This document shows positions 6,420 through 56,111 of a DNA stretch of 64,000 bases, piece after piece (within the stretch, counting starts at the first letter, position 1; each line of letters opens with the position of its first letter). Source of the stretch: Helianthus annuus (taxonomy: Eukaryota > Streptophyta > Magnoliopsida > Asterales > Asteraceae); NCBI RefSeq assembly GCF_002127325.2, contig NC_035435.2:15171502-15235501 (forward strand), written 5' to 3'. The translations under genes and the position numbers were made by a program. A model generated the notes under the pieces. The model did no database searches, was not told the origin of the DNA, and saw only the letters and a list, made by a program, of their open reading frames with translations.

Positions 6420-6970
6420 GAATGATTGCTGTACATCCCTGTTGAAAAACAGAGTCGATAAATTTAGGGAAAATGAGGTTGAAAGATGATAAGCCAACAG
6501 TGGACGATCTGATTCTATAGCTTCGATACATTCAGGGGTATTCTGAATTAATACTTCCTAGATGCTTCAAAAGAAGCAGCACTTTGGACATTTGTCGGAC
6601 TTCAAACATCTGTTAATTTATTATCTATTATCTATTATCTATTACCTATTATCTATTATTATATATAATAAATGAAAGTTGATTGCTCCACATAGCCCAA
6701 AGTGGATCAATCAACTTTCATTTATTATATATAATAGATATTAGATATTAGATAATTAGATAATAGATAATAAATTAATAGATGTTTCAAGGCCGACAAA
6801 TGTCCAAAGTGCTGCTTGTTTAGACGCATCTAGGAAGCATTATTTGAGAATACACCCGAATTTATCGAAACTGTAGAATGATATCGTCCACTGTTGGCAT
6901 ATCATCTTTCAACCTCATTTTCCCTAAATTTATCGACTCTGTTTTTCAACAGGATTGTACTGCAATTATT
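6420..6970. repeat. Long imperfect hairpin (inverted repeat, ~265-bp arms)
   Basis: 6445-6689 and 6704-6951 are reverse complements at roughly 90% identity. They share TTGAAAAACAGAGTCGATAA at the outer ends and AATGAAAGTTGATTG near the centre, with a loop of about 15 bp. Weaker pairing extends to about 6420 and 6970. The apex sequence (CTTTCATTTATTATATATAA) recurs once more at 7876. It looks like a foldback or MITE-type element whose transcript would be largely double-stranded. Confidence 0.8.
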
Positions 6971-23495: not shown

Positions 23496-23946
23496 TGTAG
23501 ATCCCAAAACGTATCCGGATCACAGTGGTTGGTTGTTTTAGTCCAAAACACCTATTGATTAAGTGTTTGAACTATGAAGAGTCAAGAAAGATCAAGAATG
23601 AAGATGAAGCTAATGGATTGATGAATACAACTAGTGTTGTATTTAATCCAAACAGTAAAATATAGCAATGAATAACCTTGGAAATCAGATCTAAGCACAA
23701 TATGAATGTAAACAACACTTGATTCCACCAAGAGCCAAAAGCTTGAATAAGTTACAATGCTTGGGGTATATATACTAGCCTCCTGACTTGCCAGCAAATT
23801 TATAAATTTGCTGGAATCTTAACTACACTAAGTCAGGAATACAACTTCTAGATAAATACAAAATAACCCCCTAAACATTCAAAATGCATACAAACTACTA
23901 TCAAACTAATCCAGCACAAGTACCAACGATCTCATAAGCTCTAACA
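23496..23946 (-). repeat. 3' LTR of the Sirevirus
   Basis: 451 bp, TGTTAG...TGGGATCTACA on the minus strand, identical by eye to 36191-36641 except that the inner end of the other copy reads TATAG for TGTAG. It contains a 24-bp perfect palindrome (23791-23814) and a TATATATA box (23767-23774) 16 bp downstream of it. Confidence 0.95.
23767..23814 (-). promoter_or_regulatory. LTR core promoter: 24-bp palindrome, 16-bp gap, TATATATA
   Basis: CCAGCAAATTTA is followed by its exact reverse complement (23791-23814). Reading on the minus strand, TATATATA (23774-23767) comes 16 bp later. The copy in the other LTR (36462-36509) drives the full-length transcript. Confidence 0.8.
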
Positions 23947-23957
23947 ATATCCCCCCT
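23946..23957 (-). other. Polypurine tract of the Sirevirus
   Basis: AGGGGGGATATT on the minus strand abuts the 3' LTR start TGTTAGAGC. An identical 12-mer lies at 28857-28868. Confidence 0.85.
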
Positions 23958-23979
23958 AGATCGTTGCGTGCTTGTCTTC

Positions 23980-26721
23980 TCATTCTTCCGTGGTAACCGC
24001 TGGATCTTCCGTAGTTTGCTTTTCAGGCTCGGTTGGATTTTCTTCAAGAACTACCGTTTCTGGTGGTGTAACAGTCTCCGTTGGTGCTACCGGAGTTTCC
24101 TGATTAATGTTAGCTTCACTTGATTGTTTGTCCTCCTTAGCGGCCTCATATGTGGATGAGGCCGGAGGTGTTGATGTTGCTTGAGAGGTGGTGGTGGTTC
24201 GATCTGCTGTTGAAGTAGAGCTTCCTCCCACTGTTTTCTCGTGTTTCTTTTTCTTCCGAGCTTCTTTCTTTTTCTGTTCTTTCTCTTTTCGCTTCTCCAT
24301 TTTGTCTACCATGTCGAGCATATCTCTTTTTAGTCTCCAGGCACGCTCCACTGCTTGTTGAAACAGTGCTGCCTCTTCAAGATTGGCATTGCCAGCTCCG
24401 ACGTTAATGCGACTTGCATTCAGCATGGTGAGATCTGAGAGCCCGAACTTAAACACGTCCATAGGATCCAGAATTCGAATATCAACATTATCGTTTGACC
24501 TGATTACTGCTTCACCGGTTTGACTATCATAAAACCATTTCTTGAAATCCTTGAGGGCTACAGGGATTTCTTCTGGAAGCTTGACTCTGGTGACAACTTT
24601 AGCAGGGTTGACCACCCACGTCACCTTTCCTTTGCCTGTTACTGGATCGAAGGTGGTTTTTGACACTCGGCGTCTTGGGCGCTGTGGGGCATGATTCGGG
24701 AAATCTCTGTCACATTCTTTCGCAATTAGTCGTTCAAAATCCCTTCCGATGCCTCTGTCACCATGGTTTAGCAGATTCAGACGCCCAAGCTCTCTCAGAT
24801 CCCACCTTGGAAGAGTGAAGAGATCAAATCCTGTTTCAAAATACTGTATCACTCCACCACGTCTCTTCACTACGAACATGCCTCTGAGATTGTCATACAT
24901 CCAACTGATGATTTTCTCAGTTTCCTCAGATTTTACAACTCTTATCACTTGATGAAGATCAGGAAGTTTTTCTCGTTCCTTTCTAAACCATTCGGGGTGC
25001 TCTGGAGTAAATGTTTTGCCGTCTTCTTGCTCATACAGGACTTCATCCTCGAGCCCCCATTCAATAAAGGTCGGTGGCATGACTTCTCTATCCACCTCCT
25101 CTTCTTCGCTTTCATTTCCCTCCAATGCTTTATCAACAGATTCTAATCTCCTTTTCTTTACTTCAGCTTCCTTTTCTTTGCGAGCTATTTCTTCCTGAAT
25201 GAAAGCATCAAAGTCGAAGATTTCATCGAATGTAAACATCGGCTCGATTTTCGTCTTTTCACATATCCCGCGCATCATCCTGTAGAGTTTCTCCAAGCCA
25301 GCTTGCTGAAACCTGACAAACTTGGCTTGCTTGGCCATGTATGCCGTCATTTCCTTGTTCTTCTTTCTCTGATCTTTGAGTTTTTCTCTCAGGATGTTCG
25401 TATCATTAACTTGATTCTTTAATAAACAAATTTCTTTCGCCACAGAAGGCCCGGTGTCCTTGATCAATCGGTCATACAGGTCTTGAAAGGGACGAAGCCT
25501 TTGTGGAACAACTGGAGGCTTTGAAATTCTTGTTGGTTTGACTGGGGATACCTTTGATGTGCCTTGACCTGCTTGTGCCTCGTATGGATCAACAAGAATT
25601 TGGTCAACGAAATCATTGAGAGTTTGAGTTTCTTCAGGAACTACTTCGGGCATCTCAGATGAAGATATTTCTTTACGCTTCAGACTCTTTTCTCTTTTCT
25701 CTTTCTCCTGCATTGCATGAATGGCTTTCAGATCTTGAATATGTTTACGATGCTCTTCAGTTTCTGCCGCCCTGATTGCTGAACTCATGAGACGCTCAGA
25801 ACCTTCCGTTGTCTTTTTCTTCTTTGGAGGTTCTCCTTCAGCAGGTTGCTTGTCTTTTCTTTTTCCTTTGCTTCTTTCTTCTTTGGCAGCTGCTTCGGCC
25901 AGAGCCTGTGTAGCTTTCTGTTGTTTAGCTTTGACACCTTCTTTGTATTTCTGATATGCAGCTTTAACGATTGGTAGTCTTTCAGCTCTATACATCCAAT
26001 CGTGCAGCAAAACCCATTCGTTGGTTTTGATTTCTGTATACTGTCTGCTTGTAGGCACGTGAAACTTGTAGGTGTTTCCGTCATTTGGGAGGTCCTTGTG
26101 TTGATCATTAATGAGCATTTGAATAAATCTCGGGTACATCGCCCAAGTTGCTCCATTTGCATTCTCTCGCATATAATTGAATATGAGGCCGGAGAGATTG
26201 AATTTCTGATTGATACACAAGCTTAGCATGGCTGCAGACCATTCTAGATTCAGCCCGTCAAATCCGCCTTTTCGATGAGCTAGGCTCATCGAGATCACGT
26301 GGACAATAAACCTCCAATCCCGGGTGAGACCTCCTCTCTTGATTTCTTTCTTGTTTCTGAAATCCCCGGCGTATCCCATTCCTCTAAAACCGTCAAGAAT
26401 ATCATCTTGACTAAGACTTTGCGGTTCATCACTGTTGTCTTTAAGCTTCAGAACTTGACGTATCCTTTCCTCTGTCACTTCCACTCTTTTGTTGCGCACG
26501 GTTGAAGAGATTCCCGGTTTGTTGTTTATAGACTCCAGCTTCACGTTCTCCCAGAATTCTTGAATGTGAAGGGGATAGACAGGAACGGATGTCTCCACCG
26601 CGTAACCGATTCTGCTATCACGTACCCATCTGGATACATCTTCGAAGTCAGTCGGCACTAGATCAAGATTTATGCTCTGATTATGCTTGAGGGTTTTATC
26701 CCATTCCAGTACTTTTACCAT
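23980..26721 (-). CDS. Sirevirus third ORF (envelope-position protein, 913 aa)
   Basis: The ORF lies downstream of pol, the place of the so-called envelope-like gene of Sireviruses. I start it at MVKVLEWDKTLKH (26721) because ATG directly follows a strong splice acceptor (TTTTCTGTGCAG|C). The frame is open further to 26805, but that extension is T-rich hydrophobic translation of the predicted intron. Residues ~20-270 look globular (DFEDVSRWVRDSRIGYAVE, WSAAMLSLCINQKF, WVLLHDWMYRAERLPI). A Lys/Glu/Ala-rich coiled coil with nuclear-signal-like PPKKKKTTEG follows at ~280-370, then another coiled coil, a C-terminal basic helix (KRKEKEQKKKEARKKKKHEK) and a Ser/Thr/Pro-rich tail. No signal peptide or membrane segment is seen in this form, so it does not look like a fusion glycoprotein. 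Function unknown. Confidence 0.8.
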   Translation of the reverse strand: MVKVLEWDKTLKHNQSINLDLVPTDFEDVSRWVRDSRIGYAVETSVPVYPLHIQEFWENVKLESINNKPGISSTVRNKRVEVTEERIRQVLKLKDNSDEPQSLSQDDILDGFRGMGYAGDFRNKKEIKRGGLTRDWRFIVHVISMSLAHRKGGFDGLNLEWSAAMLSLCINQKFNLSGLIFNYMRENANGATWAMYPRFIQMLINDQHKDLPNDGNTYKFHVPTSRQYTEIKTNEWVLLHDWMYRAERLPIVKAAYQKYKEGVKAKQQKATQALAEAAAKEERSKGKRKDKQPAEGEPPKKKKTTEGSERLMSSAIRAAETEEHRKHIQDLKAIHAMQEKEKREKSLKRKEISSSEMPEVVPEETQTLNDFVDQILVDPYEAQAGQGTSKVSPVKPTRISKPPVVPQRLRPFQDLYDRLIKDTGPSVAKEICLLKNQVNDTNILREKLKDQRKKNKEMTAYMAKQAKFVRFQQAGLEKLYRMMRGICEKTKIEPMFTFDEIFDFDAFIQEEIARKEKEAEVKKRRLESVDKALEGNESEEEEVDREVMPPTFIEWGLEDEVLYEQEDGKTFTPEHPEWFRKEREKLPDLHQVIRVVKSEETEKIISWMYDNLRGMFVVKRRGGVIQYFETGFDLFTLPRWDLRELGRLNLLNHGDRGIGRDFERLIAKECDRDFPNHAPQRPRRRVSKTTFDPVTGKGKVTWVVNPAKVVTRVKLPEEIPVALKDFKKWFYDSQTGEAVIRSNDNVDIRILDPMDVFKFGLSDLTMLNASRINVGAGNANLEEAALFQQAVERAWRLKRDMLDMVDKMEKRKEKEQKKKEARKKKKHEKTVGGSSTSTADRTTTTSQATSTPPASSTYEAAKEDKQSSEANINQETPVAPTETVTPPETVVLEENPTEPEKQTTEDPAVTTEE

Positions 26722-26722
26722 G

Positions 26723-27485
26723 CTGCACAGAAAACGAGGCAAGTTAGAATGCATAGTTACCAGATAGACTATGTACAAAAAGAAATTTACCAAGGATATG
26801 TACAATTATAATAATTAAAAAAAATCAACATTTTGATAATTTCGCTGCCAGGTCAGAGAGTTTCATCGCTGCCGGATCAAGGAATTTCATCGCCGATACG
26901 TGTTGCCGAGATCAGGTATTGGATCAGTCGAGCATCGCTGACTTCGCCAACACAACTGATCCCGATAACTTCTCGTTAACTTCGCTATGTTCGCTGGGAA
27001 TCAGACAAGATTTCAAGGCTAAAATCGCTGGCGAACATGGCGAAGACAGCGTTTCTTTTCAGGTAATGGTCTACCAGCGAAGGTGTCGATCTAAATCGCT
27101 AACCGAGCGAATTAGATCGTTCGCTGGTCGCTCGAACTCGCGTTCGAGACTTTTGATTATCCCCTACCTAATTTCGCTATCATCGCTGGCATCATAATAA
27201 TATCGCTATATTCAACCGTTTCTTGATAAACCCTTTACAAAAGCCCTAAAATTGATTTGACAATATGATACTGAGTAAAACACCTAAAACTTTCAAATCA
27301 GATGCATTGAATTCTAACCATAAACAATAACAGATTATATCGAAGGAACAAAACAAAAGAAAAACATCAACACATTTCTGATTTCAAATTTGATTTAGAA
27401 TATTATGAACTTCAAACCTACTCAAACAGATTTCTTTGATTTGAACAAAAGATTGCGATAAGATGAAGGATAATCTGAAACCTAC
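26723..27485 (-). other. Predicted leader intron of the third ORF
   Basis: The donor is CATCAG|GTAGGTTTCAG at 27485 and the acceptor TTTTCTGTGCAG at 26723, two bases before the ATG; the length is 763 bp. The intron contains about 14 copies of TCGCTG-type words (26838-27200), as does the main 5' leader of the element at 35500-35960. Confidence 0.6.
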
Positions 27486-27626
27486 CTGATGATGTTTGAC
27501 GAAGATGAGAAAACTTGTGTTGATTTTATGATGAACCGATTAAAGATGAGAGGATGAAGACGATGACAGACCGGCGATGAAGAGGTTTCAAAATGAAATT
27601 TTAAAAGTTTTTACAGTTGTAAAAAC

Positions 27627-27675
27627 TATATATATGTACGGTTAAAGATAACCAGCGAACTTGTAAGTTCGCTGG
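27627..27675 (-). promoter_or_regulatory. Internal promoter module copying the LTR promoter
   Basis: A 24-bp near-perfect palindrome (27652-27675, one mismatch) with half-site CCAGCGAACTTR is followed on the minus strand, after 16 bp, by ATATATATAG (27635-27627). The LTR has the same palindrome family (CCAGCAAATTTA) with the same 16-bp gap to TATATATA. The module is about 0.9 kb upstream of the ORF3 start codon and 140 bp upstream of the predicted splice donor. Confidence 0.65.
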
Positions 27676-29050
27676 TATCTTAATTTCGCCGGCATTCTTA
27701 TGTTTTCAAATCAAATTTGATTTTGCGTGTTGATTTCAAACTTTCTCGAAAAACGTGCCCATTTTTGTTTAAAACCTTGTTTATTTCAGAATATTCACAG
27801 TAATGCTAAAATTTGGGCCATTTTGACTCCGAACTTCAAATTTCTTGCTTTGCGAGGATTCACTTAACTCAGAATTTCCTGAAATGTCTGACACTTACCG
27901 AACTTACCTGCAGAGGATCATACTGCCAACACTCGCCACATTCTTTATATATTATTATTGTTATATTACTAACCAGGGCACAAGAAAAACTGTCAGTATG
28001 TTTGTCCGCTTAAATCCATGCATCCTTCTTTCAACATACCTTCGGAGAGCGTGTTTTATCATGTTTTCGGTAATATTGACAAGTCTTCGATGGCCCCCAC
28101 ACAAGCTATTGAAAATAGAATCATTACGCCCTCGTGAGTCCCACATCAGGACATACCCCCGCGATCAAGGTATGCACAAAGATTCTTCATAATGGGTGAG
28201 TATATTGGATTCATTCTCTTCAACGATAGAACGGAGATCAGGTCTGTACTTTCGTACGACAGAGATTCCAGGAACTATCGAGGGTTAAGATAGATAGTTC
28301 GGCCAACAGGTCAGTACTACCGTACAGCAGAGTTGCCTACTGATCTATCAGAGAATTTGGCCAAAGATGGCACTTATTATGGATTTTGGCCAATAATGGC
28401 GCTTATTATACAGGGTTTGGCCTTTTTTTTTTTTTTTTTTTTTTTTTAGGCACTTATTAATAAGAGAATATCATAGCATCGCATCTAGGTCAGTACCACC
28501 GTACAGCAGAAGAGCAACTATGATATCCTCCGAATGACATACCAATATAAAGACCCGAAATCTCAGACTTTGGCAATCCGTCAACGCAAGATTCAAGACC
28601 ATTAAGCCATATGCCGCAACGTGTTACCCACTGAGGTGCGTAATGCCTGAGAAAAGCCAGAATTCTTGTGTAGATATTATGTTCGGCTCCCTACCAGCAG
28701 TTTACTCGTCGGTGTTGCTGAATCTACCGACACGTCGTTGCTTGGTACCCTGATTGTATATTGTATTCTGTTCAAAGAGATGACAAAGTGTTAGCAATTT
28801 TCTATCACTTCCTCTAACAGGAGTCTGACATAAGCATCTGTTTCAAGGATTTTCTGAATATCCCCCCTAAAATTTTTATTTTCGTAAGTCCATTAGCCCG
28901 AAAATAAAATTTTAACCAGAAAATCTTTTGGTGGGCGACATTTTCCAATACTAGTTTTATTTTCAACAAGCAAAAACTTTATTATATTAATTTTAATTAA
29001 AAGTTTTTTTTTTTTTTATTTATTTATTTTTTTTTTAATCAACACAAGAT
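27676..29050 (-). other. Sirevirus spacer between pol and the third ORF
   Basis: Non-coding. It holds an internal PPT copy (28857-28868), three copies of GGTCAGTACYACCGTACAGC (28241, 28309, 28488) and a T homopolymer of about 28 bases (28421-28448). Confidence 0.6.
28857..28868 (-). other. Internal copy of the polypurine tract
   Basis: AGGGGGGATATT on the minus strand, identical to the 12-mer beside the 3' LTR, 183 bp after the pol stop. TGTTAGAGG, resembling the LTR start TGTTAGAGC, follows about 40 bp later. Confidence 0.7.
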
Positions 29051-32000
29051 TCATTTCCAGTCAAGGAAATTAACCATTTCTAACCAGGTTACCAACTGGT
29101 TAAAACGGGTTTTGTCAAACGCTTTCGTAAAGATGTCGGCCCGTTGTTGTGTTGTGTCCACTGGCACCACTTGAATGTATCCCTTTTCATAAGCATCTCG
29201 AATTGCGTGAATGCGAATTTCGATGTGCTTGGTTCTTGAGTGATGCACGGGATTCTTCACAATTCCCAGACACGCTTCATTGTCGATGAATATCGGAGTC
29301 TTCATGATGTTGATTTCGTAATCCAGCAACTGATTTTGTATCCAAAGGACTTGTGAACAGCAACTGTATGCCGCAGTGTATTCCGCTTGAGCTGTTGACG
29401 TGGACACTGTTGTTTGCTTCTTGCTTTGCCATGAAATCAACCGGTTTCCCAGAAATTGACATCCTCCTGATACCGACCTGCGATCTACTTTGCAACCTGC
29501 ATGATCACTGTCAGAATATGCAATTAAATCAAAATTACTATCTTTAGGATACCAAAGCCCTAGTTTTGGAGTTCCTTTGAGATAGCGGAAGATGCGCTTT
29601 ACAGCAATTTCATGGGATTCCTTGGGATTTGTTTGGAATCGAGCACAAAGACAAACTGCCCACATGATATCAGGTCTGCTGGCTGTCAAGTACATCAAAG
29701 AACCGATCATTGAACGATAGAAGGATTTGTTCTGTTTGGGAGGCGAATGGCGTGCTTGCAACTTTGCAGTCATTCATGTTGTACTTCGAGAGAATGTCCC
29801 GAATGTATTTAGCCTGATGAATCAGAATTCCATCCTCCCTTTGCTTCACTTCTAAACCCAAGAAGAAATTCAGCTCTCCCATCATGCTCATCTCGAATTT
29901 TGCTTTCATGATGGTTTCAAATTCTCTGCACAACGCCTCATTGGTTGACCCGAATATAATATCATCCACGTAGATTTGGACTAGCATAACATCTTCCCCT
30001 ATCTTCTTGGTGAAGAGTGTCATGTCAATCGTTCCTCTGTTATAACCACATTCCAGCAAGTATGTGGACAGAGTCTCATACCATGCGCGTGGAGCTTGAT
30101 GAAGGCCATAAAGTGCTTTATCCAATTTGAAATAACGGCCTGGAAAATGAGGATCTTCGAACCCTGGAGGTTGACACACGTAAACTTCCTCCTTGACTTT
30201 CCCGCACAGAAACGCACTTTTGACATCCATTTGAAAGACCTTGAAGTTTCTATAAGAGGCATACGCCAGGAATATTCTGATTGCTTCCAATCGTGCGACT
30301 GGAGCAAAAACCTCTTCGTAGTCAATCCCCTCTTCTTGTCGAAAACCCTGCACTACCAATCGAGCCTTGTTCTTGATAACCACCCCACGATCATCCATCT
30401 TGTTTCGAAAGACCCATTTAGTGCCGATAGGGAACTTTCCATCAGGTAGATCTACAAGTTCCCACACTTTGAGTTTCCTGAATTGGGATAATTCTTCTTG
30501 CATTGCCTGAACCCAGCTGGAGTCTTGAATAGCGTCTTCGATGTCACGTGGAACTGATTGTGATAGAAAAGCTGCGAAGAGACCTTTGTTGATGCTTGCT
30601 GACTGCCCTCGAGTGCGTACTCCTTCTTCTACTGCGCCGATGACATTTTCAAGAGGATGATTTTTATTTGTCTTGTAACCTGCATTTGTCAGAGATTCGA
30701 TTTGCTGCGGAAGGTTGGTGAAATGTTCGTCGACATAAATTATTGGTGGATCATCGTCTTGAGTTGGCTCATTCACATTCGCCTGTGAAGAAGAAGCACC
30801 ATTGTCTTGGGTGTTCTCAGGCGAAGTGTCACCATTTGATTCATTTACAGCCATAATCGGATCAGCAGATGATGGAGATAATCGGGTGGTGAAAGGAGTA
30901 AAACCAATGTCAGACGAGTCAAACAAAGGTTCAACTTGAGCGTCTTCGACTGGCTCAGGGTCAGACGTAGTTTCCGGAATTTCAAAGTTATTGAAGATCA
31001 CACTCACATCATAGAACCAGTCAGGAGTGCTGCCAGTGTTGGTGTAATTTCCTTCTTGAAAGTCCACGTAGTACGATTCGATCACCATCTTTGTTCGTTT
31101 GTTGTAAACACGATAAGCCTTTTGAGTGGATGAATACCCCATAAAGTAGCAGATATCACCCACTGCTTCAAACTTGACGAGATTTTCTTGAGTGTTCAAC
31201 AGAGTGCACGAACATCCGAATGGCCTGAAGAAATCTATAAGAGGCTTTCTTTTGAAGAGAAGCTCGTATGCTGTCTTTCCATGAGGTTTCACGATGAGCA
31301 CCCTGTTCAGAACGTAGCATGCTGTATTAACAGCTTCAGCCCAGAAGATAATTGGAAGCTTGGAGTCCACCAGCATGGTTCTTGCAGCTTCAATCAACGT
31401 TCTGTTCTTGCGTTCAGCGACTCCATTTTGCTGAGGAGTTCTGGCTGCACTGTATTGAAGATGAATTCCTTTTTCTGCGCAGAATGATATGAAGGTCTGA
31501 TTTTTGAATTCAGACCCGTTGTCGCTTCTTATGGACTTCACTTTCCGCTTGATTACGTTCTCTATCAGGGGAATGAATGCTTTTAACACTTCAGCAGTCT
31601 CGCTCTTTGCTTCAAGAAAATATACCCGTGAAAACCGAGAGTAATCATCTGTTACAACCAAACAATAAGAGCTTTTAGCAAGACTTTTAACACTGATAGG
31701 ACCGAAAAGATCCATGTGCAACAATTGAAGTGGTGCAGAAATCGTGTTCACTGCTTTGGACTTGTGTGGTTTCTTATGCTGCTTTCCCTGGGCGCATGCA
31801 ATACATTTTGCAGAAAATGGAAATTCTTTGATTGGAAGACCTCTAACTAAGTTCATTTTAGATAGTTTATTCATATTTTTGAAGTTAACATGCCCCAGTC
31901 GTCTATGCCAAAGCAGTGACTCCGATTCTGACGCTTTAGAAATTAAGCATGTCAAGTTGTCATTTGTCTTGGCGTTTTTCATGTTGAGCACATATGTGTT

Positions 32001-32342
32001 GTTCTGTCTTGGAGCAGTGAGCATGATCATTTCTGCAGGAACAACATAACCGGGCTTCAGGAACAAGCATTCCATGTCATTGAACAGCACCGAGATCCCT
32101 TTATCACACACTTGAGAAACGCTCATGAGATTATAGCACAGCTCAGGAACATAGTTGACATTTTCCAGCGTGAGGGCTTCGGACACTACATCTCCTACTC
32201 CAACAATCTTTCCTCCCTTTTCATCGCCAGCAAAAGACACGAAGTCACCATCAATAAAGCGGAAGTTTTTCACTAGTTCCTTCAATCCAGTCATGTGTCT
32301 TGAACATCCGCTGTCTACGTGCCAGATGTATTCCATGAGCAT
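29051..32342 (-). pseudogene. Sirevirus pol polyprotein with one frameshift before RNase H
   Basis: From [19 protein letters not shown] (protease, DSG) the frame contains the GAG-pre-integrase HHCC part ([20 protein letters not shown]) and integrase D, D, E ([28 protein letters not shown]). Reverse transcriptase follows, with [10 protein letters not shown] and the usual copia start [20 protein letters not shown]. Near 29755 the frame shifts: the RT connection domain ends early (STPFASQTE) and the RNase H part continues in another frame ([43 protein letters not shown]) to the stop at 29051. About 15 residues usual at this junction are missing, so a small deletion caused the shift. All catalytic residues are otherwise present. 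Confidence 0.9.
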
Positions 32343-32414
32343 TCGAAGCCATTTCTAGAGTTTATTCTGACATACACAAATACACAACTATACAGGTTAG
32401 TTTGATTTAGGAAC

Positions 32415-35400
32415 CTAGATCTGTTTGATTTCGAATCTATCGTGGTTTTGACCCACTTTGACCTCTTTTTGTTTCCAAAGATACGCAGTTGAATCAACCA
32501 GATTTTTAACAGATTTCTTAAGATAATTTAGTTGCTGCGTGACGTTTGTAATAAAATCATGCTCTGGTTTAGGAAACTTTTTGGTTTTACAATGTTTCGC
32601 TGTATGTCCTAAATGACCACAGCGAAAACATCTTTTATGTCTGGGTCTTTTGGTGTGAGAAGATGATGTATGTGATGAGAGTCTTGAGCTTTCTGCTTTC
32701 TTCATTTTCTTGTCCACTCTGCTTTCATCTTCGGGAAATTCTTCATCACTGTCTGAATCGAGTGAGCTTTCAGACGTGTTGTCCTCTCTTGAATTTTGTT
32801 CTTCACTTGCTTCACAACTTGAACATTCGAAGCTTTCATCACTAGTTGCTTGATCTTCAGTTGAGGTTTCTGAATGCGAACTTTCTGATGTCTGTTCGTC
32901 TTCTGTGGTAATGACGCTTGAATCTACATTATCTTGATCTTCAGTAGCGTTCTTTTCCGATTCTGTCATACCTGTTCTGGAAGGAATAAATTCGGGAATT
33001 TCCTTTGTAAGGAATTTTCCAAAACTATTCCTTTTTAATTCTGGCACAAATACAGGAGATTCACAAGCAACATTATCATCACAACACGCATAATTCAAAC
33101 CATGACATTCAGACACATAAGGTTCATGATCACGGGTCTCAAATGTAGGCACATGGCCCTTACAGTCATCCACAGATTTAGTTTTAGGCACTTGGCCATT
33201 ACAGTCATCCATCCTACTTAAACTATTACATTCATACTTAACATTGTTTTTAGAACAATTCCAGACGAACCAGTTAACGGTGGAATAACTGTCGCCTGAA
33301 TAACCAATTCCTATTTTTGACCCTCCGCAGTCTCCATCATCATCGCACACATCTTCTTTACACTCAATGGAATCTGCATTGCTTTTAGAGCAGTTAGTAG
33401 TTGTCTCATTTTTATAAAATTCATTTTGTTCAACTGAGGCCTTTTCATTTATGAGATCATTTTCGGGATGAGGAGTAGGCATAGGCACGTAGTTTTTGCT
33501 GTGAGGCGGAAAGAAAAGTTTTCTTTCATTTCCGTGCCTATCCTTATAACCAATCCCGTCTTTCACAAACGTTGGTCGTTGGCAATTTTTGATGTCAGTA
33601 AAGGCCTTTTGACTGACATTCCATTTATCTATTATAATTTGAAGTTTGTTCTTTTCATTCAAAGCTTTTTCTAATCTTTCTGTAAGATCATTTATGATAA
33701 AATCTTTTCTAAACACAAATTCTTTAAGAGTTTGCATTTCAGCCAAAGTTGAGTTCAACTTTCTCTGATATGCAGCCTCATTTTGTTTAAGCTCGTTATT
33801 AATTTTTAAAGCTTTGTCCTTTTGCCTTTCAAACTCCAAATTTAAGAATTTATAATGTGCCACGACATCAACGCATGCTTCGGAGCATAACTTCTCCTTA
33901 AAACTGAGTGGAATACTATTTACCAAGTCTTTGTCAGCCTTCTCTTTTGATGCATCTGCTTTCATGGCTGTAGCTTGAGCTTTATCCTTTCCTTTCTCAG
34001 CATCCTTTTCAGTTTGATCACCAGACTTCACTGAAGGCAGAATACCTTTCAATCCCTTGTCAGCATCATTGTTTCCAGTTGGGATTCCAGTTGTCTGCTT
34101 CTCAAACTGCCTTGCAGGTGACTCACTTGAGATTTTGGCCATCAGGGCTTTGCTGACTTGTTCCTTAGCTTCAGTGATCTCTTCGCTCCAATCATAGTCT
34201 TCAACAACTAAAGCCTTTGGCGTGCTGGGAGATGCGTTGCTTTTGTTCTCTTCAACAGTGATCTGTTTAACAGCAGGAGTAGTTTCACTGTTTCCCTCTT
34301 TCAACAACGGACAGTCACGCTTGAAGTGTCCAAGATTCTTGCAGTTGTAGCATCTCAGCTTGGACTTGTCAAAGCCAGCTTTTCCAAGACCCAATCGCTT
34401 GCCTGTCTTGTCTTGAAATTTCTTTAATCTCAGAGTGATCATGGCCATTTGCCATTTCAGATCCATTTCTTCCATATCATCTGGATCAACCTGATACATG
34501 TCTTCGGCAGTAAACATCTCCTTCTTCAGTTCCCCAGACATTAGGGCTTCATAGCTGCTCAGAAATGTGTTGAAGAGAGCCACATTCTCAGTGGAAACTT
34601 TCAATGCTTGAGTATCAACAGTGATAGTCTTCTCGACAAGTTGTGGAGCTTTAGATGCGCTTGCGGAAGCATTTGCGTAAATTAGGTCAGAAGCTTGTGG
34701 AGTGATGCCCCCTGCAGCGAGAAATGCTACATTCTTCAATCCAGCTGAAGGTTGAGTTGCTTTAGGTTGATATCCAGCAGTGTTCATCTCTCTCTTGTTA
34801 ACGTCCATTTCAAATGCCCTTAGGGTGTTGATCAAATCTGACAAAGTGACAGGATTAGGATTGTTGAGGAAATCCTTCTTGATCATCATACATTGCAGGC
34901 TCCATTCCTTGGGGAGCGAATCAAGCAGTTTCTTTATTGCAGCACGATTGGTAACAGGATTTCCTGCTTTCTTCATTTTCGTCATCATGTTTAGGAAGCG
35001 GCTAATGTGATCAGACAAGCTTTCTCCACGGACTCCGCAAAACATGTCGTATTGCTTCTGAACCATATCTCTCTTGCTTTCGATCAGTTCTTCATTTCCC
35101 TCATAGTACTCGATCAATGCATTCCAGAGTGCATTTGCAGTTCGGTGTTCTTCAAACATGTTGCAGTCGTTTGTTGATAAGGCCATGGTTAGAGCGGCGT
35201 GTGCACGACGATCACGTTGAATGAGGGCCTTGTCTTCGTCAGTGAAGGTAGTAGCATCGTTGTTAGTAACTACCGCATCTCCTCTAACTACCGTGGGAAC
35301 GTGAGGTCCGGCGGTAACAGAGAGCCACAGATTGTAATCCGTGTACTCGAAGAACGATTGAATGCGCGTTTTCCAAGTGCTAAAGTCTTCCGCTCCTTTC

Positions 35401-35474
35401 AACTTTGGTGGGCGAGTTGTGGTTCCAGTTTCGAGTTCCGCTTGAGCGATTGGACTTAGTTGATTTAGCGACAT
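32415..35474 (-). CDS. Sirevirus Gag, 1019 aa
   Basis: MSLNQLSPIAQAELETG begins a UBN2/gag-type domain (FSTWKTRIQSFFEYTDYNLW, DMVQKQYDMFCG). Two CCHC zinc knuckles are present: CYNCKNLGHFKRDC near residue 385 and CFRCGHLGHTAKHC near 960. Between them are a long Lys/Glu-rich coiled-coil stretch (~510-620) and an acidic Ser/Glu/Asp-rich stretch (~840-920). Gag packages element RNA into cytoplasmic particles. It is unusually long for a copia Gag. It ends ...EIKQI before a TAG that stands where related proteins, as I recall them, have IWVPK, so the stop may be a mutated tryptophan codon. Pol follows 72 bp later in the same frame after several further stops. Confidence 0.9.
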   Translation of the reverse strand: MSLNQLSPIAQAELETGTTTRPPKLKGAEDFSTWKTRIQSFFEYTDYNLWLSVTAGPHVPTVVRGDAVVTNNDATTFTDEDKALIQRDRRAHAALTMALSTNDCNMFEEHRTANALWNALIEYYEGNEELIESKRDMVQKQYDMFCGVRGESLSDHISRFLNMMTKMKKAGNPVTNRAAIKKLLDSLPKEWSLQCMMIKKDFLNNPNPVTLSDLINTLRAFEMDVNKREMNTAGYQPKATQPSAGLKNVAFLAAGGITPQASDLIYANASASASKAPQLVEKTITVDTQALKVSTENVALFNTFLSSYEALMSGELKKEMFTAEDMYQVDPDDMEEMDLKWQMAMITLRLKKFQDKTGKRLGLGKAGFDKSKLRCYNCKNLGHFKRDCPLLKEGNSETTPAVKQITVEENKSNASPSTPKALVVEDYDWSEEITEAKEQVSKALMAKISSESPARQFEKQTTGIPTGNNDADKGLKGILPSVKSGDQTEKDAEKGKDKAQATAMKADASKEKADKDLVNSIPLSFKEKLCSEACVDVVAHYKFLNLEFERQKDKALKINNELKQNEAAYQRKLNSTLAEMQTLKEFVFRKDFIINDLTERLEKALNEKNKLQIIIDKWNVSQKAFTDIKNCQRPTFVKDGIGYKDRHGNERKLFFPPHSKNYVPMPTPHPENDLINEKASVEQNEFYKNETTTNCSKSNADSIECKEDVCDDDGDCGGSKIGIGYSGDSYSTVNWFVWNCSKNNVKYECNSLSRMDDCNGQVPKTKSVDDCKGHVPTFETRDHEPYVSECHGLNYACCDDNVACESPVFVPELKRNSFGKFLTKEIPEFIPSRTGMTESEKNATEDQDNVDSSVITTEDEQTSESSHSETSTEDQATSDESFECSSCEASEEQNSREDNTSESSLDSDSDEEFPEDESRVDKKMKKAESSRLSSHTSSSHTKRPRHKRCFRCGHLGHTAKHCKTKKFPKPEHDFITNVTQQLNYLKKSVKNLVDSTAYLWKQKEVKVGQNHDRFEIKQI

Positions 35475-36174
35475 TTTTCTTTGTTTTTGACAAACTAGTG
35501 CTGAACAGACTTAAATACGCCGACAGAACTTTAAATTCGCCGGTGAGCGATGTTGACAGATGATCTTCGCTGACTGGTTCGCTACCTTCGCTGATAAGCT
35601 GTGGATCCTGCACGAGCAATCAACTTATCTACGCTGACAAATCAAACATAAACAGAGTTAGGTTAAATTTGCCGGAAACCGTGATAGGAACACTGTGATT
35701 CGCTAGCACGGTTCTCGAAGTCGCCTTCGATAATTTCGCTCAAGGGACAAATGGTGCTATTTCGCTGATGATCAGCAAATTCGCTCGAACGATAGTCGGC
35801 GAATTTGTTGATTATGCGATAAAACACTTAGCGATTTGAATTATTTCGCTATATTCAACGCCAAGATCGCTGTATTCAAAATATAAATTCGCTGTATTCA
35901 AATATTCTTCGCTGTCTTCAAAATAATTTCGCTGGACAGAGGGTTTAACACGAACTAAAACCCTCTAATCACTCAAAAACAGCCCAAAAACCATGTTTTG
36001 ATGCACCAAAATGACCAAAATAACTCCCTAATCAAGTATTAACAACAACATATCGATTAAACACACCAAATCAATCCATTTTAAGCCCAAAAATTTGAAA
36101 AAAACCTTGAAACTTTGAAAAACCTTCAAAACAATGAAAAATCTTAACAAGAACACAACAACCAAGAGCACAAA
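35475..36174 (-). promoter_or_regulatory. 5' leader of the Sirevirus transcript
   Basis: Non-coding. About eleven TTCGCT(G/A) words occur between 35560 and 35940. TCGCTATATTCAAC here (35844) is shared with the ORF3 intron (27199). The A-rich remainder lies next to the PBS. Confidence 0.6.
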
Positions 36175-36187
36175 GGCTCTGATACCA
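36175..36187 (-). other. Primer-binding site (initiator tRNA-Met)
   Basis: TGGTATCAGAGCC on the minus strand, three bases inside the 5' LTR. It matches the 3' end of initiator methionine tRNA, the usual copia primer. Confidence 0.9.
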
Positions 36188-36190
36188 AAT

Positions 36191-36641
36191 TATAGATCCC
36201 AAAACGTATCCGGATCACAGTGGTTGGTTGTTTTAGTCCAAAACACCTATTGATTAAGTGTTTGAACTATGAAGAGTCAAGAAAGATCAAGAATGAAGAT
36301 GAAGCTAATGGATTGATGAATACAACTAGTGTTGTATTTAATCCAAACAGTAAAATATAGCAATGAATAACCTTGGAAATCAGATCTAAGCACAATATGA
36401 ATGTAAACAACACTTGATTCCACCAAGAGCCAAAAGCTTGAATAAGTTACAATGCTTGGGGTATATATACTAGCCTCCTGACTTGCCAGCAAATTTATAA
36501 ATTTGCTGGAATCTTAACTACACTAAGTCAGGAATACAACTTCTAGATAAATACAAAATAACCCCCTAAACATTCAAAATGCATACAAACTACTATCAAA
36601 CTAATCCAGCACAAGTACCAACGATCTCATAAGCTCTAACA
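36191..36641 (-). repeat. 5' LTR of the Sirevirus
   Basis: 451 bp, identical to the 3' LTR except for one base at its inner end. The target duplication CCCTG follows at 36642. Confidence 0.95.

Positions 36642-56031: not shown

Positions 56032-56033
<2 letters not shown>

Positions 56034-56109
<76 letters not shown>
56034..56109. repeat. (AT)38 microsatellite
   Basis: 76 bp of uninterrupted AT dinucleotide. Confidence 0.98.

Positions 56110-56111
<2 letters not shown>

Follow-up and report, generated by a model that had tools for sequence, protein, structure and literature searches.

A candidate LTR-like internal promoter upstream of the third ORF in a sunflower Ty1/copia retrotransposon

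Earlier work on nine Sireviruses reports, in the available part of its text, palindromic repeats that precede the LTR TATA box and recur ahead of env, and proposes that these palindromes regulate both the LTR and env (Bousios 2010, PMC2829016). The same part cites Peterson-Burch and Voytas 2002 for the hypothesis of an internal promoter, but could identify none. A forward extra ORF between pol and the 3' LTR occurs in 74% of SIRE elements according to the accessible part of PMC6317226. In the open-licence literature, as represented by titles and the starts of abstracts, no plant copia element is described in which a sense ORF has an internal promoter with a TATA box, which is weak evidence of absence. 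Here we analysed a 64-kb stretch of Helianthus annuus DNA (the window, on contig C3; the genome searched comprises 3.01 Gb in 334 contigs), for which a preliminary description had proposed that the third ORF of a retrotransposon possesses its own promoter, a copy of the LTR promoter module, and had called such an arrangement undescribed. Novelty holds for the candidate promoter itself, the available text of PMC2829016 identifying none, but not for the palindromes before env or the hypothesis, both published there. The observation as such is borne out and is better supported than the preliminary description could show. Judged from the DNA sequence, our preferred reading, to which we assign a probability of roughly 0.72, is that a 24-bp dyad and a TATA site constitute the core promoter of a transcription unit internal to the element, whose product is a spliced ORF3 mRNA: diverged copies keep together the dyad, a TATA box 13-22 bp further on, a leader, a donor, an intron, and an acceptor, and sister families show the same plan. 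The result is a concrete candidate: a start and a splice junction are predicted for it along with its dyad and TATA box, and the crop that carries it has been sequenced.

The host element is a Ty1/copia LTR retrotransposon (23496..36641) with the target-site duplication CAGGG, and its features (LTRs, dyads, leader, intron, and ORF3) all lie on the minus strand. The 5' LTR (36191..36641) is 451 bp long; it differs from the 3' LTR (23496..23946) at only one of 451 bases, so the insertion is young. Gag and pol (two overlapping frames) together with ORF3 make up the coding part. In one ORF, the rve domain (residues 203-303) stands before RVT_2 (residues 625-866), i.e., integrase precedes reverse transcriptase, which is the criterion for Ty1/copia (Pseudoviridae). 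As in the Sireviruses of PMC2829016 (available text), the 9-bp PBS TATCAGAGC is present after the 5' LTR. ORF3 is a forward extra ORF between pol and the 3' LTR. The Sirevirus PPT octamer, AGGGGGAG, lies exactly 10 bp ahead of the 3' LTR, whereas the sunflower element has AGGGGGGA starting 11 bp before it. Sirevirus linkers also contain several identical PPT copies; the sunflower linker holds one further copy, AGGGGGGATATT, at 28867. The transmembrane domain of Sirevirus env-like proteins is likewise absent from ORF3, in which no hydrophobic stretch is strong enough: the highest 19-residue hydropathy mean is 1.13, and the usual cut-off for a transmembrane stretch is ~1.6. Sirevirus LTRs hold clusters of short palindromic repeats; in the sunflower element, a count of palindromes with arms of at least 10 gives one per LTR. 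The element is thus of the Ty1/copia type, and its assignment to the Sireviruses would be tentative, with two tested features lacking.

The LTR dyad CCAGCAAATTTATAAATTTGCTGG occurs in the 5' LTR at 36486-36509 and in the 3' LTR at 23791-23814. As the preliminary description had it, all 12 pairs are complementary in both LTRs, and after a 16-bp gap the dyad is followed by TATATATA (36462-36469 and 23767-23774, respectively). The near-palindrome claimed upstream of ORF3 is equally present: the internal 24-bp dyad CCAGCGAACTTACAAGTTCGCTGG, in the linker at 27652-27675, has 11 of 12 pairs complementary and is followed, again after 16 bp, by the TATA box ATATATATAG at 27626-27635. The two modules are offset in register by one base, the T of TATATA lying 17 bp away from its dyad in the internal module, as against 16 bp in the LTR. 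The internal dyad is built of two inverted CCAGCGAA half-sites, that is, two CAGCGAA words facing each other. It is not a chance product, since 100 shuffles of the window contain no match to its 24-mer even when as many as 3 mismatches are allowed. Palindromes with arms of at least 10 and at most 1 mismatch in the 64 kb comprise the two LTR dyads, the internal dyad, one at 27606-27627, and AT-rich ones at 6720, 7883, and 56656, with one long AT run (56033-56110) set apart. The palindrome at 27606-27627 lies directly 3' of the TATA box; we considered it as a part of the module and rejected it, most sister copies being without it by eye. Throughout the genome, the pattern of palindrome, 12-24 bp, and TATA gave 315 forward and 809 reverse matches, figures that pool the LTR and internal forms and may count a single site at several offsets; read backwards, the pattern gave 0 matches.

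The conservation of the region was assessed with 27470-27780 as the query, and the best 40 of 396 candidate relatives were scored, so that distant relatives are under-sampled. A cluster at G000:C11:63870436-63895356 holds five of these 40 copies, four of them at a spacing of ~5.6 kb, which is suggestive of the 3' part of the element being arrayed in tandem. The internal dyad is kept in 39 of the 40 best copies (16 exact, 19 with one mismatch, and 4 with two), the exception being L036, which has a deletion within the dyad; the commonest mismatch turns the central AC into AT and yields a perfect palindrome. In 23 representatives chosen by single linkage at 92%, the dyad has a median identity of 0.958, compared with 0.694 from -56 to -20, 0.664 over the leader, and 0.470 where the intron begins. 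When all 967 windows of 24 bp between -60 and +930 are ranked, the dyad window comes third (0.968 vs. a median of 0.667) and ties to three digits with the windows shifted by 1 and 2 bp for the best conserved, although the copies differ by ~0.5 substitutions per synonymous site in ORF3. A conserved box, GGCGAAATTAAGATA (27676..27690), adjoins the dyad upstream, with a median identity of 0.944 over -18..-1.

Sister families show compensatory change. Across 46 modules (L036 excluded), pair 9/16 is C-G in 39, A-T in 6, and T-A in 1, and at pair 6/19, 41 modules have G-C and 5 have A-C; the centre pair is often broken. Six sister-family copies carry CCAGCGAAATTnnAATTTCGCTGG, exactly or with one base changed, together with a TATA box, a leader, and ORF3, and most of them also have the donor; a seventh sister copy (L095) shows a third pair state. 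When the central 8 bases of the dyad were left free, the genome yielded 233 internal-form sites, a number that includes sites not shown to precede an ORF3, and the reversed pattern yielded 0. Among 50 listed sites of the 233, complementary pairs number 47 at 9/16, 40 at 10/15, 36 at 11/14, and 35 at 12/13. Eight of these sites, fetched blind to their flanks, carry AAGAT ahead of the dyad without exception; six have a TATA box after it, and two are without any. As the preliminary description supposed, the internal dyad itself looks to be under selection, judging by the compensatory change and its retention in 39 of 40 copies, and the mutual relatedness of the copies means that these tests overstate independence.

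TATAWA is found 8-34 bp past the dyad in 36 of 47 modules, compared with 31 of 1504 control windows (26 bp each, from +90 to +900 of the same copies), and 11 of the 47 modules are without it. With weaker TATATG forms included, the gap between dyad and TATA ranges from 13 to 22 bp in 46 modules, being 17 bp in 31 of them, and the first TATA in the listed LTR matches lies 12 to 16 bp past the dyad (the pattern permitted 12-24). Given these ranges in internal and LTR modules, a bounded gap is the rule and an exact 16 bp is not. The preliminary description had taken the exact spacing as selected; the 16 bp stand in both window modules up to TATATATA and ATATATATAG and fail as a general rule, and the alignment across copies confirmed conservation of the dyad and mostly of the TATA box (identity of the TATA columns is moderate, 0.80, with gaps at 0.21) but not of the gap.

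The predicted leader exon (27486..27603), whose start would lie at TATA + 31, is pyrimidine-rich and contains no ATG. In 47 copies, the stretch from TATA + 31 to the donor holds 2 ATGs in 5587 nt, and the introns hold 721 in 35614 nt. Thirty non-redundant leaders have 1 ATG vs. 13.9 in dinucleotide shuffles (sd 3.3, least 4 of 300), and ATGs come back 3' of the donor, although the test is weaker than its number suggests because the copies are related. A leader nearly free of ATGs is what scanning requires. The predicted intron (26723..27485) is 763 bp long, as previously claimed, with the donor CAG/GTAGGT and the acceptor GCAG, and the acceptor ends at 26723, one base ahead of the ORF3 ATG at 26721. 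The best-scoring donor GT reads AG/GT in 46 of 47 copies (L093 is without the AG), a count flattered by the donor being chosen as the best GT within a 170-nt stretch; AGGTA stands at the expected donor position in 39 of the first 40 copies, and the acceptor and ATG context are present in 42 of 47. A search for a spliced ORF3 retrocopy gave 0 matches to one strict pattern, which says little. The joint retention of dyad, TATA box, leader, donor, and acceptor in most diverged copies argues for the independent ORF3 unit of the preliminary description. In such a unit, RNA polymerase II would start ~31 bp past the TATA box, splicing of the transcript would make the ORF3 ATG the first ATG, and the ORF3 mRNA would be made separately from the full-length genomic RNA.

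The preliminary description did not include a further feature, which is new: arrays of CAGCGAA, one in the 5'UTR and one in the intron of ORF3. The motif stands as an inverted pair upstream of the ORF3 TATA box and, in a diverged form, upstream of that of the LTR; each of the two arrays has about ten to fourteen copies and is biased to the sense strand. The window contains 71 AGCGA/TCGCT motifs in 64 kb: 14 (12 sense) at 35546..35933 in the 716-bp 5'UTR, 14 (12 sense) at 26842..27207 in the 763-bp ORF3 intron, both arrays being on the minus strand, and 13 in gag, pol, and ORF3 combined, with zero in the 3' LTR, the linker 27700-29050, and the leader. In 30 non-redundant introns, AGCGA occurs 310 times vs. 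14.9 expected from base frequencies, and TCGCT 123 times; AGCGA is the most enriched among the 5-mers seen at least 60 times, sense copies number 3 to 14 per intron, and CAGCGA is enriched 68-fold. The 5'UTR array was found in six of seven sister pieces, the seventh of which did not span the UTR. The LTR with the 5'UTR thus parallels the internal promoter with the intron, because each consists of a dyad, a TATA box, a motif array, and a start codon. The shared dyad and arrays suggest that the LTR and the accessory gene may answer to one signal. The internal dyad would act as DNA, bound by a factor able to recognise the LTR dyad as well, and through this common factor the two promoters would respond to related signals. 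The ORF3 mRNA would lack both arrays, because one lies upstream of its start and the other is spliced out. It is conceivable, although rather doubtful, that one factor, possibly the ORF3 protein, reads CAGCGAA in dyads and arrays in a two-promoter circuit of the foamy-virus type, and that arrays confined to the genomic RNA let the element tell its RNAs or promoters apart.

The sense-strand bias of the arrays fits a role in DNA or in RNA. Alternatively to an internal promoter, ORF3 might be reached only via splicing of a long RNA from the 5' LTR, as reported for barley Bagy2, with the dyad acting as an RNA hairpin, e.g., in packaging, export, or splicing control. The genomic RNA does contain the dyad and both AGCGA arrays, with their sense bias (310 vs. 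123 in 30 introns), and the available part of a 2020 review (PMC7264820) places env-like transcription at the 5' LTR. We consider this explanation unlikely; it leaves the bounded TATA distance and the ATG-free stretch from TATA to donor unexplained, and pair 9/16 is never G-T in the 46 modules and 50 listed sites, though RNA tolerates G-U.

ORF3 (23980..26721) encodes 913 amino acids with basic runs and a Transposase_32 match below Pfam's cut-off. Its predicted structure (mean pLDDT 47.3) is too weak for a structure search, and its relative P0002 has only one match, with an E of 0.26, among solved structures. The median dN/dS is 0.060 over the first 200 codons (30 copies, pairs with dS >0.05) and 0.118 over the last part (36 copies, median dS 0.54), and by these sequence estimates ORF3 is under purifying selection. 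A sunflower gene model, protein P0006 (HanLR1_Chr10g0363021), has ~320 residues that are unlike ORF3 by eye fused to a diverged ORF3; the fusion point is the ORF3 start methionine, as though the ORF3 acceptor had been used. The median dS is 0.52 at the start of ORF3 (120 pairs, 4 saturated) vs. 0.163 at the pol end (29054-29278; 18 of 20 representatives of the same set, 75 codons only), so the ORF3 cassette is more diverged than the rest of the element; the 18 3' LTRs compared are 94% identical. Elements of the family seem to exchange ORF3 cassettes. This dS contrast, along with a fall in identity from 0.94 to 0.69 just 5' of the dyad, would suit a dyad that serves mainly as a recombination or template-switch site for cassette exchange. 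Such a role is very improbable in our judgement, in that the same dyad and TATA box stand in the LTR and recombination at a site requires no TATA box and no ATG-free leader. Situated on the diverged side of the drop, the dyad hardly varies.

Upstream of the dyad, a noncoding block from -620 to -320 (window 27995-28295, minus strand) has a median identity of 0.987 in the 23 representatives and is the most conserved noncoding stretch that we saw, above the dyad. The best 40 of its 832 candidates are 98-100% identical, and in sister families it is 92-94% identical in five of six copies, with no match in L091. It may be an enhancer or an RNA signal. The fold energy of the block showed no clear gain over shuffles (z 0.15 for sense and -1.52 for antisense), no covarying pairs appeared in 42 distinct sequences of it, and Rfam gave no family at the gathering score across 26600-29100. 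In the intron island, 21 sequences gave compensatory-cell pairs of 2 (sense) and 3 (antisense) and broken cells of 16 and 28. At G000:C2:125268122-125270395, a single ORF3 module is preceded by three copies of the conserved block at a spacing of ~967 bp. A further TATATAAAG lies at 27943-27951 (minus strand) with the perfect donor CTGCAG/GTAAGT at 27908. Because of the 0.987 block and this pair near 27906-27951, the true ORF3 start could be upstream, in the block (27960-28330) or at TATATAAAG with the donor 27908, and the dyad would then be an enhancer or a bystander; TATATAAAG and the GTAAGT donor recur in nearly all 23 representatives listed. We nevertheless hold this to be quite improbable: conserved ATGs, though removable by splicing at 27908, stand between the upstream TATA box and the dyad, and the ATG-free leader of the dyad-TATA unit would be needless. 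Three GTACnnnnGTAC dyads, within a 24-nt direct repeat family, are also located upstream of ORF3 (28240-28510, minus strand); they are alike in place to the repeated motifs of Sireviruses but unlike them in sequence.

The internal promoter that we favour can be compared with several described systems, each cited here from the available parts of the papers. In foamy viruses (PMC8670036, PMC4929722), one factor, Tas, acts on both the LTR and an internal promoter; the likeness is one of logic, a resemblance rather than a demonstrated homology, and the common factor of the sunflower element is hypothetical. In Grande (Ty3/gypsy, PMC7264820), the accessory gene gene23 likewise lies between pol and the 3' LTR and has its own promoter, but the gene is antisense, whereas the sunflower ORF3 is a sense ORF in a Ty1/copia element and its putative promoter has a dyad in common with the LTR. 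In the case of Bagy2 of barley (PMC7264820), an extra ORF past pol is also reached by splicing, of an env-like mRNA; that RNA is taken as starting in the LTR, while an internal start is inferred in sunflower. Sireviruses (PMC2829016) share with the sunflower element a palindrome that precedes the LTR TATA box and has a counterpart in the linker, immediately ahead of the extra ORF. They utilize clusters of short repeats, at least 8 in each element and mostly built on a CGG-CCG core, as well as CpG islands, and no env promoter was identified in them, whereas the sunflower element has a single long dyad with a TATA box, a predicted leader and intron, and arrays of the half-site downstream. Compared with these systems, the new part is likely that a sense accessory ORF has a defined internal promoter resembling that of the LTR, predicted from sequence, with a motif code shared with the LTR.
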